Assembly (NCBI RefSeq): GCF_947500995.1
Contig: NZ_CANMUA010000004.1
Location: 1 to 64,000, forward strand
Direction: 5' to 3'
DNA length: 64,000 nt
DNA from: an uncultured Serinicoccus sp.
GTDB lineage: Bacteria; Actinomycetota; Actinomycetes; Actinomycetales; Dermatophilaceae
In this document: one piece after another, positions 3,479 through 19,964 of the stretch
Layout of the letters: each line of letters starts with the position of its first letter
Position numbering within the stretch: the stretch's first letter is position 1
Translations under genes and position numbers: made by a program
Notes under the pieces: model-generated
Databases searched by the model: none
Told to the model about the DNA's origin: nothing
What the model saw: only the letters and a program-made list of their open reading frames with translations

Positions 3479-4404
3479 GCCGGCGGATCATGCTCGTGAC
3501 CCACCCGACGCGGTCCGACGTCCCGCACCTGGCGAGCGAGTTCGCCGAGCGGCTGGGCCGGCACGGCATCGAGGTCGAGGTCGTCCCCGAGGCGGACCCC
3601 ACCCACCAGGTGGTCGGCGACAGCGAGGTGGTCGCCCTGAAGAGCCCGGTGCCGGGGCACGTCGACGCCTCGGGCTGCGAGCTGGTGGTCGTCTTCGGCG
3701 GCGACGGCACCATCCTGCGGGGGGCGGAGATCGCCCGACCGGCCGGGACGCCGCTGCTGGGGGTGAACCTCGGGCGGGTCGGTTTCCTGGCCGAGGCGGA
3801 GAAGGACGACATCGAGGTCATCGTGGCCCGCATCGTCGACCGGGACTACCACGTCGAGCGGCGGATGACGCTGGAGGTCGACGTCGTGCACGACGGCCGG
3901 GTGGTCTGCCACAACTGGGCCCTCAACGAGGCGAGCGTCGAGAAGTCCGCCCGGGAGCGGATGCTGGAGCTGGCGGTCGAGGTCGACGGACGACCGCTGT
4001 CCACCTGGGGCTGCGACGGCGTCGTCATGTCCACCCCCACGGGGTCGACCGCCTACGCGTTCTCCGGTGGCGGGCCGATCATCTGGCCCGACGTGGAGGC
4101 GCTGCTCGTCGTCCCCATCTCCGCGCACGCCCTCTTCGCACGTCCCGTGGTCCTCGGTCCGGACGCCCACCTGGCCGTCGAGGTGGTCCCCCACAGCCAC
4201 GTCACCGGCGTGATGTGGTGCGACGGGCGGCGCACCGTCGAGCTCCCGCCGGGTGCGCGCATCGAGGTGCGACGGTCCACGACGCCGGTCCTGCTGGCGC
4301 GGCTCGGGACCGGCGCCTTCACCGACCGTCTCGTCGCCAAGTTCGCCCTCCCGGTCTCCGGGTGGCGCGGTCCCGCCGGTGGTCCGCCCGAGGTCACGGC
4401 GTGA
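3475..4404 (+). CDS. nadK: NAD kinase
   Basis: 309 residues. It phosphorylates NAD to NADP with ATP or polyphosphate in the cytosol. The diagnostic GGDGT motif is in VVFGGDGTILRGAE, followed by NLGRVGFLAE, the NEASVEK segment and the TPTGSTAYAFSGGGPI loop. ATG at 3475 is preceded by ACAGGAGG, a strong ribosome binding site inside the end of tlyA. It ends overlapping recN. The tlyA-nadK-recN order is widely conserved in actinobacteria. Confidence 0.95.
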   Translation: MSRRIMLVTHPTRSDVPHLASEFAERLGRHGIEVEVVPEADPTHQVVGDSEVVALKSPVPGHVDASGCELVVVFGGDGTILRGAEIARPAGTPLLGVNLGRVGFLAEAEKDDIEVIVARIVDRDYHVERRMTLEVDVVHDGRVVCHNWALNEASVEKSARERMLELAVEVDGRPLSTWGCDGVVMSTPTGSTAYAFSGGGPIIWPDVEALLVVPISAHALFARPVVLGPDAHLAVEVVPHSHVTGVMWCDGRRTVELPPGARIEVRRSTTPVLLARLGTGAFTDRLVAKFALPVSGWRGPAGGPPEVTA

Positions 4405-6188
4405 CCCTGCGGCGCATCCGGCTCCAGCAGCTCGGGGTCATCGAGGAGGCCGAGCTCGACCTGGCCCCCGGCCTCAACGTCATCACCGGCGAGACGGGCG
4501 CCGGCAAGACGATGGTGGTCAGCGGCCTGGGGTTGCTCCTGGGCGAGCGCGCCGACGCCGGCCTGGTGCGCGCCGGGGCCTCCCGCGCCGTGGTGGAGGG
4601 TGAGGTCGACGTGCCCCGGGAGCACCCCGCCGCCCGGCGGGTGGAGGAGGCCGGGGGTGACGCCACGGACGGGCTCATCCTGGTGCGCACGGTGGCCGCC
4701 GAGGGCCGGTCCCGCGCCAGCGTCGGGGGACGCAGCGCACCCGTCTCGGTCCTGGGGGAGGTCGGCGAGCACCTCGTGGCGGTCCACGGCCAGGCGGACC
4801 AGTGGCGGCTCCGGGACACCGAGCAGCACCGCGTCCTGCTGGACGCCGCCGGCGGTTCCGACCTCGCCGCGGCCGCCGAGACGTATGCCGCGGCCTGGCA
4901 GGAGTGGCAGCAGGCCCGGGCGCGGTGGGCCGAGCTGACGAGGACGACCGCCGAGCGCTCGCTCCGCGTGTCCGCCCTGCGCACCGCCGTGGAGGAGATC
5001 GAGCGGGTCGACCCGGCGACGGGGGAGGAGTCCGACCTCCGTGCGGAGGCGGACCGCCTGACGTATGCCGAGGAGCTGCGCCAGGCGGCGCACACCGCCC
5101 ACGACGCGCTCGTCGGGGGCGACCCCGCCACCGGTGCGGCGGACGGACCGTCGGTCTCCGGCCTGCTGGGGACCGCGGTCGCGGCCCTCGGTCCGGCGGC
5201 CGAGCACGACGAGGAGCTGGCAGGGCTGCAGCGCCGGGTGCAGGACCTGCTCTACCTCGCGAGCGACCTCGGGCCGGAGCTGGCGGGCTACGCCGCCGGG
5301 GTCGACGTCGACCCGGAGCGACTGGAGTCCGTGCACGCGCGGCGCTCCGAGATCGGCGCGCTCCTGCGGCGGTATGGCTCGAGCACCGAGGAGGTGCTGG
5401 CCTTCGCCCGACGGGCGGCGCAGGAGCTGCACGACATCGACGTCTCCGACGACGACCTCGCCACCCTGGCCTCGGAGGTGGCCCGGTTGCGGGACGAGAC
5501 GGGGCGCCGCGGCGTCGAGCTCGGCGCCCTCCGACGGGCGACCGCCGAGCGGGTCGCGGCGACGGTGACCGAGGAGCTCGCCCACCTGGCCATGGGTTCG
5601 GCGACGGTCAGCATCGAGGTGGGCCACCGCCGGCCCGAGCGGCCGGCGGGGGCGGAGGGCCCGCAGGACGGCCCCGGGGAGCCGGTGGTCGAGCTGGCCG
5701 ACGGGTCCCTGGTGCGGGCCGGCCGCTCCGGCCTCGACACCGTCGAGATCCGGCTGGCCGCCAACCCCGGAGCCCCCGCACGATCCGTCACCAGAGCGGC
5801 CTCGGGAGGAGAGCTGTCCCGCGTCATGCTCGCGCTCGAGCTGGTCTGCGGCGACGGGTCGGTCCCCACCTACGTCTTCGACGAGGTCGACGCCGGCGTC
5901 GGCGGCGCGGCCGCGCTGGACCTGGGGGCGCGCCTGGCACGGTTGGCGAGCACCGCGCAGGTCGTCGTCGTCACCCACCTGGGGCAGGTCGCCGCGCACG
6001 CCGACCGCCATCTCGTCGTGCGCAAGAGCACCGACGGGCAGGTCACGAGCAGCGACGTGAGCGTCGTGGAGGGGCCCGAGCGCGAGGCGGAGCTGGCGCG
6101 CATGCTGGGCGGGGTCGCCGACTCCGACGCGGCGCTGGAGCACGCTCGGGAGCTGCTCTCCCGTCGTGCGACCATTGACGCCGGATGA
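4401..6188 (+). CDS. recN: DNA repair protein RecN
   Basis: 595 residues, the usual RecN length. It is an SMC-like ATPase acting early in double-strand break repair. Walker A GETGAGKT lies near residue 30, the ABC signature SGGELSRVMLAL and Walker B TYVFDEVDAGVGG lie near the C-terminus, and the long Ala/Glu/Arg-rich centre should form the coiled coil. GTG at 4401 overlaps the nadK stop and leaves the expected TLRRIRLQQLGVIEEAEL start strand. No LexA box was seen directly upstream, as expected for an internal operon gene. Confidence 0.95.
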   Translation: MTLRRIRLQQLGVIEEAELDLAPGLNVITGETGAGKTMVVSGLGLLLGERADAGLVRAGASRAVVEGEVDVPREHPAARRVEEAGGDATDGLILVRTVAAEGRSRASVGGRSAPVSVLGEVGEHLVAVHGQADQWRLRDTEQHRVLLDAAGGSDLAAAAETYAAAWQEWQQARARWAELTRTTAERSLRVSALRTAVEEIERVDPATGEESDLRAEADRLTYAEELRQAAHTAHDALVGGDPATGAADGPSVSGLLGTAVAALGPAAEHDEELAGLQRRVQDLLYLASDLGPELAGYAAGVDVDPERLESVHARRSEIGALLRRYGSSTEEVLAFARRAAQELHDIDVSDDDLATLASEVARLRDETGRRGVELGALRRATAERVAATVTEELAHLAMGSATVSIEVGHRRPERPAGAEGPQDGPGEPVVELADGSLVRAGRSGLDTVEIRLAANPGAPARSVTRAASGGELSRVMLALELVCGDGSVPTYVFDEVDAGVGGAAALDLGARLARLASTAQVVVVTHLGQVAAHADRHLVVRKSTDGQVTSSDVSVVEGPEREAELARMLGGVADSDAALEHARELLSRRATIDAG

Positions 6189-17922: not shown

Positions 17923-17928
17923 TAGACT
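17923..17928 (+). promoter_or_regulatory. candidate -10 element of aspS
   Basis: TAGACT, identical to the -10 candidates before efp and metK in this window. It places the transcription start near 17935, just before the first hairpin of the aspS leader. No clear -35 was found. Confidence 0.55.
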
Positions 17929-17934
17929 GGTCCG

Positions 17935-18170
17935 GTTCCCGGGGCGGCGTGACGACCCGCCGGGGTGGACGGTGAGGCGCACGGCATACCTCGCCCGCTC
18001 GCCCCTCCCGGGAGCCGCGCGTCCGGCGGAACCGACGAGAGGCCGAGGTCCCCTCGGCGAAGGTGTGGTGGCACCGCGACCTGGCCCCCGCCCACACCTC
18101 CCGGGCTGCTCAGGCGGGCCGGGTCGTCGCATCCTCAGACCTCCGGCGCGCCGCACCGAGAGGAGAGATC
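17935..18170 (+). ncRNA. T-box riboswitch-like leader of aspS, ultrashort stem I type
   Basis: The 3' element has classic T-box geometry: arm AGGTGTGG (18061-18068), bulge TGGCACC (18069-18075), inner pair GCG/CGC (18076-18078 with 18089-18091) and closing arm CCACACCT (18092-18099). Stem III is the perfect hairpin GCCGAGG-TCC-CCTCGGC (18042-18058). A stem II pairs GGTGAGG with CCTCGCC (17971-17977, 17989-17995). Stem I pairs GGCGG with CCGCC (17943-17947, 17957-17961) around loop CGTGACGAC, which presents GAC, an Asp codon. The bulge TGGC would pair with a GCCA 3' end, fitting G73 of tRNA-Asp. There is no T-run, so translational control through the GAGAGGAGAG site before aspS is likelier than termination. 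The sequestering pairing is not resolved. The folding was done by eye. Confidence 0.8.
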
Positions 18171-19964
18171 ATGCTTCGCACCCACGAGTCGGGCACCCTT
18201 CGGCCCGACCACGTCGGACAGACCGTCACCCTCACCGGCTGGGTGGCCCGACGCCGCGACCACGGCGGCGTCGCCTTCATCGACCTGCGGGACGCCAGCG
18301 GTGTCGTCCAGGTCGTCGCCCGGGACGAGGTCCTGACCGGGACCGCGCACGACCTGCGCAGCGAGTACTGCGTCAAGGTCGTCGGTGAGGTCACCACGCG
18401 CGCCGAGAAGGACGTCAACCCCGAGCTGCCGACCGGCGGCGTCGACGTCGTGGCCAGCGAGATCGAGGTGCTCAGCGCCTCGGCCCCGCTGCCGTTCCAG
18501 ATCGACGAGCGGGTCAGCGTCGGCGAGGAGGCGCGCCTGCGCCATCGCTACCTGGACCTGCGGCGTCCCGGCGCCGGCGCGGCCGGGCAGAACCTGCGGC
18601 TGCGCTCGCGGGTCAACGCGGCCGCCCGCACCGTGCTCGCCCAGCGTGACTTCGTCGAGGTCGAGACCCCGACCCTCACGCGGTCGACGCCGGAGGGCGC
18701 CCGCGACTTCCTCGTGCCGGCTCGCCTGCAGCCGGGCAGCTGGTACGCCCTGCCGCAGAGCCCGCAGCTCTTCAAGCAGCTGCTCATGGTGGCGGGGATG
18801 GAGCGCTACTACCAGATCGCCCGGTGCTACCGCGACGAGGACTTCCGTGCCGACCGGCAGCCGGAGTTCACCCAGCTCGACATCGAGATGAGCTTCGTGG
18901 AGCAGGACGACGTCATCGAGCTCGGTGAGGCCGTCGCGGCGGAGGTGTGGCGGACCGTCGGGGTCGAGCTCACCACGCCCTTCCCGCGGATGACGTATGC
19001 CGAGGCGATGCGCCGGTACGGCTCGGACAAGCCCGACCTGCGCTTCGGCGTGGAGCTGGTCGAGTGCACGGACTACTTCGCCGACACTCCCTTCCGGGTG
19101 TTCCAGGCGGAGTACGTCGGGGCGGTCGTCATGCCCGGCGGCGGCAGCCAGCCGCGTCGTCAGTTCGACGCCTGGCAGGAGTGGGCCAAGCAGCGCGGGG
19201 CCAAGGGACTGGCCTACGTCACCGTCGGTGACGACGGGACGCTGGGTGGGCCGGTGGCCAAGAACCTCTCGGACGCCGAGCGCGAGGGGCTCGCGGCGCA
19301 CGTGGGCGCCGAGCCGGGTGACTGCGTCTTCTTCGCGGCCGGTGCGACCAAGCCCTCGCGGGCCCTGCTGGGCGCGGCCCGCCAGCAGATCGCCGAGCGC
19401 GTGGGTCTGGTGGACGAGGACGCCTGGAGCTTCGTATGGGTCGTCGACGCGCCGCTGTTCGAGCCGGCCGGTGACGCCGTCGCGGCGGGGGACGTGGCGG
19501 TGGGTGCCGGGGCCTGGACCGCCGTGCACCACGCCTTCACCTCGCCCAAGGCGGAGTTCCTGGACTCCCTGGAGGAGGACCCGGGAGCTGCCCTGGCCTA
19601 CGCCTACGACCTGGTGTGCAACGGCAACGAGATCGGCGGCGGTTCCATCCGTATCCACCGGCGCGACGTGCAGGAGCGGGTCTTCGCGATCATGGGCCTG
19701 TCCCCGGAGCAGGCGCAGGAGAAGTTCGGCTTCCTGCTCGAGGCGTTCAAGTTCGGCGCACCGCCGCACGGCGGGATCGCCTTCGGGTGGGACCGCATCG
19801 TCGCCCTCCTGGCCGGGACCGACTCGATCCGCGACGTCATCGCCTTCCCGAAGTCCGGTGGCGGCTTCGACCCGCTGACCGCTGCTCCGGCTCCCATCAC
19901 ACCCGAGCAGCGCAAGGAGGCGGGCGTGGACGCCGAGCCCGAGGAGGAGGGCGCCACGGCCTGA
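18171..19964 (+). CDS. aspS: aspartyl-tRNA synthetase
   Basis: 597 residues, the bacterial-type length. An N-terminal OB anticodon-binding domain is followed by the class II core: motif 1 around [20 protein letters not shown], motif 2 [16 protein letters not shown] and motif 3 [13 protein letters not shown], with the bacterial GAD insertion between motifs 2 and 3. It charges tRNA-Asp. The RRRDHGG segment has His where discriminating enzymes usually have Leu, which suggests it may also charge tRNA-Asn for GatCAB. ATG at 18171 follows AGAGGAGAG. It is the only gene of its transcript unless the leader controls more; the next gene is convergent. Confidence 0.96.

Follow-up and report, generated by a model that had tools for sequence, protein, structure and literature searches.

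The nearest described system to the leader reported here is the ultrashort translational T-box upstream of ileS in Actinobacteria, represented by the structures from Nocardia farcinica and Mycobacterium tuberculosis. The portion of Seliverstov 2005 (PMC1262725) used here places actinobacterial T-boxes ahead of ileS only, and the excerpted text of PMC2494555 puts the number of T-boxes at 32, spread over 12 of 19 actinobacterial genomes and with 18 of them in Symbiobacterium, and does not name the other genes. A T-box of the his operon of Corynebacterium glutamicum is cited in a passage of PMC9413887, and TBDB has searched Actinobacteria with a class II model of its own, according to the available part of PMC7778990. 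In Firmicutes, the hisS-aspS T-box of S. aureus is also upstream of an operon with aspS; the section of PMC7927825 cited here names it a histidine T-box and has it act on transcription. In the literature searched we recognised no earlier description of a T-box on an actinobacterial aspS, and an entry in the TBDB tables, Sherwood 2015/2018 or Vitreschak 2008 is possible.

How does the present locus compare? In the window, which is the whole stretch of 64,000 nucleotides that was analysed, the gene in question is aspS (18171..19964), coding for a bacterial-type aspartyl-tRNA synthetase (838 bits with NF001750, 697 bits with TIGR00459). Comparison of sequences makes it very probable that the leader of this gene is a tRNA-Asp T-box riboswitch of a shortened stem I type, working by the mechanism proposed below. 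Rfam places the 3' end of a 23S rRNA gene, and a 5S rRNA gene as well, within positions 1-396 of the window.

All features of the leader, like aspS itself, lie on the forward strand. A -10-like TAGACT (17923..17928) is part of a TANNNT box kept across leaders; it ends 14-18 nt 5' of the specifier stem in 38/39 leaders, against 2/117 control segments. Transcription is thus predicted to start at about 17935 and not past 17990, which would keep stem I inside the transcript, as the earlier note requires. The 5' strand of a long-range helix, P1 (GUUCCCGG, 17935..17942), is followed by the specifier hairpin (17943..17961), in which GGCGG (17943-17947) and CCGCC (17957-17961) enclose the loop CGUGACGAC. 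The first GAC of this loop (17951..17953) is the Asp specifier codon and is invariant in alignment A3. A variable segment (17962..18007 in alignment A3, very short in L085 and L104) leads to the 3' strand of P1 (CCGGGAGC, 18008..18015), which covaries with 17935-17942. Next comes P2 (CGCGCGUNCGGCG, 18016..18028), a conserved small motif that is near-invariant in 38 sequences and the same or similar by eye in leaders of a second, archaeal-type enzyme, AspRS2 (L189-L194, L204, L207-L209). The stem II described in the earlier note is not canonical; what is present is P2 together with the P1 3' strand, and no canonical stem II was seen by eye in the window leader.

In the aligned leaders of the bacterial-type enzyme (AspRS1), CGACGAGAG stands downstream of CGCGCGUNCGGCG, and then follow stem III and the antisequestrator. 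Directly 5' of stem III there is a GAGAG purine string (RRRxG, 18037..18041), invariant in alignments A2 and A3 and missing from some AspRS2 leaders. Stem III (18042..18058) is a perfect helix of 7 bp, GCCGAGG/CCUCGGC (18042-18048/18052-18058), and a single purine separates it from AA. The order GAGAG, stem III, R, AA is found in 39 leaders of alignment A3, in agreement with the RRRxG - stem III - AA purine string which the consulted part of PMC7583486 defines as a T-box criterion. The antisequestrator is made of the A1 5' strand AGGUGUGG (18061..18068), the T-box bulge UGGCACC (18069..18075), helix A2 (18076..18091) and the A1 3' strand CCACACCU (18092..18099). Helix A2 consists of GCG (18076-18078) and CGC (18089-18091) with a G-C pair next to the bulge. 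The CCU of the A1 3' strand could instead pair with the Shine-Dalgarno (SD) sequence, a pairing that covaries in the AspRS2 relatives only. These elements (arm-bulge-arm, GCG/CGC, perfect stem III and the GAC hairpin) are present in the sequence where the earlier note had placed them.

The loop of helix A2, ACCUGGCCCC (18079-18088), is unusually conserved among AspRS1 leaders. Its UGGCCC (18082-18087) can be matched with GGGCUG (18103-18108) in a helix S2 (18082..18108), a candidate for the OFF state. GGCCCC of this loop is also the 5' end of tRNA-Asp, and the conservation is accounted for only via the downstream GGGC pairing. Further 3', a hairpin GGCGGGCCGGG/UCCGGCGCGCC (18113..18152) lies in the interval between the antisequestrator and the SD sequence GAGAGGAG (18158..18165). 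A candidate sequestrator joins 18097-18104 with 18156-18163 (7/8 pairs) and shows no covariation in the AspRS1 set.

Is the leader suited to tRNA-Asp? The genome of the window has at least one tRNA-Asp gene with anticodon GUC, and its discriminator base G73 was read from the acceptor stem (L151:1541). GAC is complementary to the GUC anticodon and UGGC to the GCCA end. UGAC is present in 41/41 AspRS1 leaders tried, and among 39 leaders 37 have G and 2 have A directly 3' of it; the leader thus combines a UGGNACC bulge between A1 and A2, an Asp specifier with a 3' purine, and an N opposite G73. A second GAC, in GUGACGAC, is conserved in only 29/39 leaders. Relatives with a long stem I ahead of AspRS2 carry GAAGAC, and the copy at a serS gene (L216) has GAAUCCA at the specifier position, where UCC is a Ser codon. 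The T-box identity and Asp specificity claimed before are upheld by the covariation given below, the GAAGAC of the long-stem relatives, the UCC of serS and the GUC/G73 of the host tRNA-Asp. We also considered a synonymous GAU specifier in L105/L106 and dropped it: by eye both have a long stem I in which GAAGACA is the specifier and UGUGAUG forms the distal loop. At about 1340-1640 of the reverse strand of L216 (genome G754), the same discriminator-type T-box stands before a serS-like gene whose protein fragment matches TIGR00414 with E 6.9e-12, an indication that certain Actinobacteria have a copy of SerRS under a Ser T-box.

Covariation was tested on several sets of leaders. For P1, cognate strands had a helix score of 18.1 versus 14.2 for mixed strands, and 0/10000 permutations were as high (40 leaders, including one misparsed leader, L111). 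On the fixed columns of alignment A3 (39 leaders), double changes occur in 8/8 pairs of P1, with 72.7% of cells paired; the specifier hairpin has 97.4% of cells paired, and one of its pairs changes from C-G to U-A in 5 sequences. Together, P1 and the specifier hairpin have 47 double-change cells versus 24.4 in shuffles (0/500). The specifier arms read GGCGG/CCGCC in 26 leaders, GGUGG/CCACC in 5 and otherwise in 8, two of these misparsed (n=39). The RNAalifold consensus on alignment A3 chooses neither P1 nor the specifier hairpin; in it the specifier arms find their partner in the GGGCUGCC region, and it has 93.3% of cells paired, but only 5 double-change cells against 47, and therefore it was not adopted. 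This pairing could be an alternative fold. A helix between GGGCUGCC and the middle segment scores weakly in AspRS1 leaders (11/5000).

For the 3' part, alignment A4 was used, which has 26 sequences hand-picked for diversity and a structure supplied by the analyst. In A1, A2 and stem III, 98.8% of cells are paired, compared with 95.6% after shuffling (0/500) and at most 49.8% when the structure is slid. Five pairs are changed on both sides, which was equalled in 1/500 shuffles; double changes are seen in 3/5 counted pairs of stem III and in 2/8 pairs of A1, whose cells are 100% paired. Across the wider set, A1 appears as GGUGUGG/CCACACC, GGAGUGG/CCGCUCC, GGUGCGG/CCGCACC and GGCGUGG/CCACGCC. Helix A2 is constant in alignment A4; its variants (GCG/CGC, GGGAG/CUCCC, GCGGA/UCCGC) all come from the wider set, which has 43 rows and in which the bulge is UGGCACC, UGGCACA or UGGUACC. 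S2 has a helix of at least 4 bp in 41/43 rows, and 4/10000 permutations were as high (40 distinct rows). The covariation that the earlier note expected is therefore seen in A1, stem III and the specifier hairpin, and in the long-range P1 as well, which it had missed. Four rows (L113, L139, L142, L148) were dropped as the same records as L003, L004, L001 and L005. The AspRS1 tests were made without L150, which has no P2 match and is unparsed, and without the four AspRS2 leaders of family f1; the misparsed L111 is included in the P1 and SD-pairing tests and excluded from the 39-leader counts.

The closest named relatives are Serinicoccus and Ornithinimicrobium. When up to 450 nt upstream of 80 aspS loci were scanned, the motif with its arms was found in 5, all from these two genera. 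The sequence GTGGTGGCACCGCG occurs in 73/186 family genomes, with some occurrences by chance within genes, and 70 loci were drawn from these places, not every listed place being taken. Of these 70 loci, 43 contain the 19-mer AAGGTGTGGTGGCACCGCG, always directly upstream of an AspRS gene. In 43/43 the tblastn match to AspRS starts 99-152 nt past the start of the 19-mer (that of L137 is only 19 residues long, at a contig end). Thirty-nine of these genes are of bacterial type and four of archaeal type (L090, L093, L105, L106), the latter with proteins about 30-34% identical to the window enzyme. In the window's own genus, the element stands at aspS in 26/31 genomes, and no such motif was seen upstream of aspS in G114, G115, G120, G127 and G130; a 27th match to model R2, in G127 (E 0.0084), is on a different contig from its aspS.

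Models R1 and R2 were built from these leaders. R1 matches 19/396 genomes of the order, and R2 at least 37/394 genomes in the class and at least 7/296 in the phylum; some of the R2 matches are noise, and the class and phylum counts are lower bounds because the filters were strict. Thirty class loci from R2 comprise 3 before AspRS1, 21 before AspRS2, 1 before the serS-like gene and 5 that are noise by eye. Seven further class matches (E > 0.002) were without a locus and are excluded from the class hits. The matches L227-L231 (E > 4e-4) were rejected as chance or coding DNA by eye. The AspRS2 copies extend across 16 families (f1, f9, f12, f14, f15, f16, f19, f22, f26, f27, f33, f35, f37, f45, f53 and f58 in the numbering of the search), and it is mostly ahead of AspRS2 that the leader-derived models reach actinobacterial families. 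In a distant actinobacterial family (G1022, G1052, G1071), other T-box-like leaders (UGGNACCGCG) were noticed at L232, L233, L235 and L237-L240, followed by genes that by eye resemble those for amino-acid biosynthesis or an aminotransferase; L234 and L236 look like chance and were not kept as related leaders.

There is a further question, how one leader comes to stand before two kinds of enzyme. AspRS2 is of archaeal type: NF003483, whose cut-off is 353, gives 527 and 532 bits for two of these proteins, which fall just short of the TIGR00458 cut-off; the AspRS2 of L223 is more distant, with 37% identity to the L093 protein. An archaeal-type AspRS behind a T-box, beside a normal AspRS, was observed in many Actinobacteria (L189-L201, L204, L206-L215, L217-L226), and its purpose may be, to give only an example, tolerance of an AspRS inhibitor. 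In one of them (L211, contig C895 of G553) the AspRS2 match is split into 273-548 and 3699-4739, about 3 kb apart, as if the gene behind the T-box were interrupted. Among 22 genomes examined, AspRS1 is in 22 and AspRS2 above cut-off in 17. In 14 of these 17 genomes, each having the T-box on AspRS2 (G029, G032, G084, G085, G171, G232, G276, G362, G400, G562, G637, G816, G840 and G873, with G298, G491 and G553 left out), no TGGCAC motif was seen upstream of AspRS1; at L272 there is one looser TGGCGCC match upstream of AspRS1, its arms not seen. Conversely, no AspRS2 was found at E <=1e-90 in any of 42 genomes whose AspRS1 has the T-box, or in 5 genus members without the T-box (0/47 in total, 44/47 being at least 90% complete). 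The genus g14 has both arrangements: G031 and G033 are without AspRS2 and have the T-box on AspRS1, while G029 and G032 have AspRS2 and the T-box there. Since the same switch sits on two distantly related AspRS, it seems to have moved between the enzymes, and the direction may be from AspRS2 to AspRS1. The alternation looks like a leader changing genes and keeping its tRNA.

How would the leader work? From its anatomy, its covarying helices, its fit to tRNA-Asp and its conservation before two AspRS types, all of which sequence comparison establishes, we infer that it binds tRNA and senses the charge. Uncharged tRNA-Asp would make two contacts, one between its GUC anticodon and the GAC in the specifier hairpin's terminal loop, the other between its GCCA end and the UGGC of the bulge, and would so keep A1 and A2 together in the ON state. 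With charged tRNA-Asp, A1 would open, so that its 3' strand could pair with the aspS SD. S2, formed by the A2 loop and the GGGC immediately 3' of A1, would aid the OFF state, and translation would fall; S2 encloses the A1 3' strand and is therefore placed, presumably, in the OFF state. In the AspRS2 leaders, there is an alternative hairpin between the A1 3' strand and the SD, for example CACCUCCGGGGAG/CUCCCCGGAGGUG in L196. This sequestrator scores 21.1 for cognate strands versus 18.6 (0/5000, 35 leaders), and 21.7 versus 18.8 (0/5000, 28 leaders) once near-duplicates and two leaders with doubtful starts had been taken out; the starts of L199 and L201 are doubtful, and L105 and L210, with no chosen start codon, were left out of the test. 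When A1 is blocked in folding of the AspRS2 leaders, the median SD exposure falls from 0.38 to 0.15, and it is higher in ON in 29/35.

The AspRS1 set behaves differently in the same tests. Its arm-SD pairing shows no covariation, with 4994/5000 permutations at least as high and both strands conserved; its median SD exposure is 0.30 in ON and 0.26 in OFF (ON higher in 26/40), which is no clear switch. Thus the ribosome-binding-site control proposed in the earlier note finds support in the AspRS2 relatives and not in the window's own AspRS1 set. Then, might the window copy be a T-box that attenuates transcription, with an OFF-state GC-rich hairpin upstream of the SD terminating without a U-run? 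The hairpin between antisequestrator and SD covaries strongly in 40 AspRS1 leaders (0/5000), the window leader with A1 blocked folds into a long GC-rich hairpin using the A2 loop, and SD exposure is hardly altered in this set, all in favour of attenuation. However, the window leader has no T-run, as the earlier note also read it, the AspRS2 start codons are only 54-75 nt past the start of the bulge with the SD included in the covarying sequestrator, and the parts of PMC7583486 and PMC1262725 used here describe actinobacterial ileS T-boxes as translational. We therefore regard attenuation as unlikely, if still worth bearing in mind. Translational control is a well-supported reading of the AspRS2 copies and a weak one of the window copy, and it is likely the mode of the class. 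Folding alone prefers ON in both sets, with medians of +10.3 and +4.8 kcal/mol for OFF minus ON, and such ON-favouring folds do not by themselves suit a switch resting in OFF.

Two other explanations dispense with a T-box. That clear copies are seen only at synthetase genes would also be expected if AspRS bound a tRNA-like structure in its own mRNA. But the loop has the codon GAC, not an anticodon-like GUC, the bulge complements GCCA rather than copying it, and the element is found at two AspRS types that are about 33% identical, as well as at a serS, so that autoregulation of this kind is very improbable. Still less credit is due to a translated leader peptide (GUG UGG UGG CAC CGC GAY YUR GCC CCC ...) as the cause of conservation in the antisequestrator region. 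Changes in the A2 loop are indeed synonymous in that frame in the 38 AspRS1 leaders of alignment A2, but where A1 varies, for instance from CCACACC to CCGCACC, the codon becomes another one and the pairing is preserved, L191/L192 lack the GUG and yet retain the helix, and the frame relative to aspS varies, with a length change after CACCU. With pairing kept over codons, GUG lost and the frame inconstant, the peptide was rejected, and a T-box reading tRNA-Asp is the explanation that we prefer.

Set beside the ultrashort ileS type, the window leader shares a small stem I whose terminal loop holds the specifier, a purine 3' of the specifier, a stem III, a UGGN bulge between A1 and A2, and the lack of a terminator. 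It differs in having GAC and not AUC, and UGGC and not UGGU; no stem II/S-turn was recognised in it, and the window's subtype has P1 and a variable segment, with no K-turn evident by eye. Sequences like UGACG/CCGAG were found by eye in L090, L195, L198, L199 and L210. Both types coexist in the window's genome (G000), which has an ultrashort-type ileS T-box GTGGTACCGCG (L171, contig C1); such a leader is in 26/27 ileS loci examined (L152-L178). R2 has a single match in this genome, the aspS leader, and misses the ileS leader. The earlier note looked for a match to the Rfam model RF00230, and there is none on the window region or in its own genome at E <=10. With this model, the AspRS2 relatives with long stem I and GAAGAC (L106, L211-L215) give matches of 39.8-63.8 bits along its entire length, like canonical long stem I T-boxes in form and short of the gathering score, which is 93; the compact form of the window is unmatched. 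The other 14/20 loci, among them compact Asp leaders, the long-stem L105 and the ileS leaders L170-L172, have no match at E <=1. Since ileS leaders of known type are missed too, the absent Rfam hit says little.

The pair at the base of helix A2 is another difference: it is G-C in 43/43 Asp and Ser rows, and G-U in 24/26 ileS leaders (one of the other two misparsed). The part of PMC7583486 considered here describes the A2 wobble pair as the main means, a steric one, of sensing the 3'-aminoacyl group. The Asp class lacks this G-U pair, and therefore the steric-sensor proposal can be tested on a natural variant. The class occurs in many families, and the stepwise reduction of its stem I and stem II parts makes a natural series that bears on which parts of a T-box are needed. 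Taken together, a tentative picture emerges, to which as a whole we would give slightly less than an even chance. The Asp lineage of Actinobacteria would be pared down to a reader of its tRNA that does without K-turn, canonical stem II and the G-U sensor of A2 and relies instead on a three-way junction of P1, specifier hairpin and variable hairpin plus P2. In lineages that lack the accessory archaeal-type AspRS, the intact leader would have passed from that enzyme to the housekeeping one.
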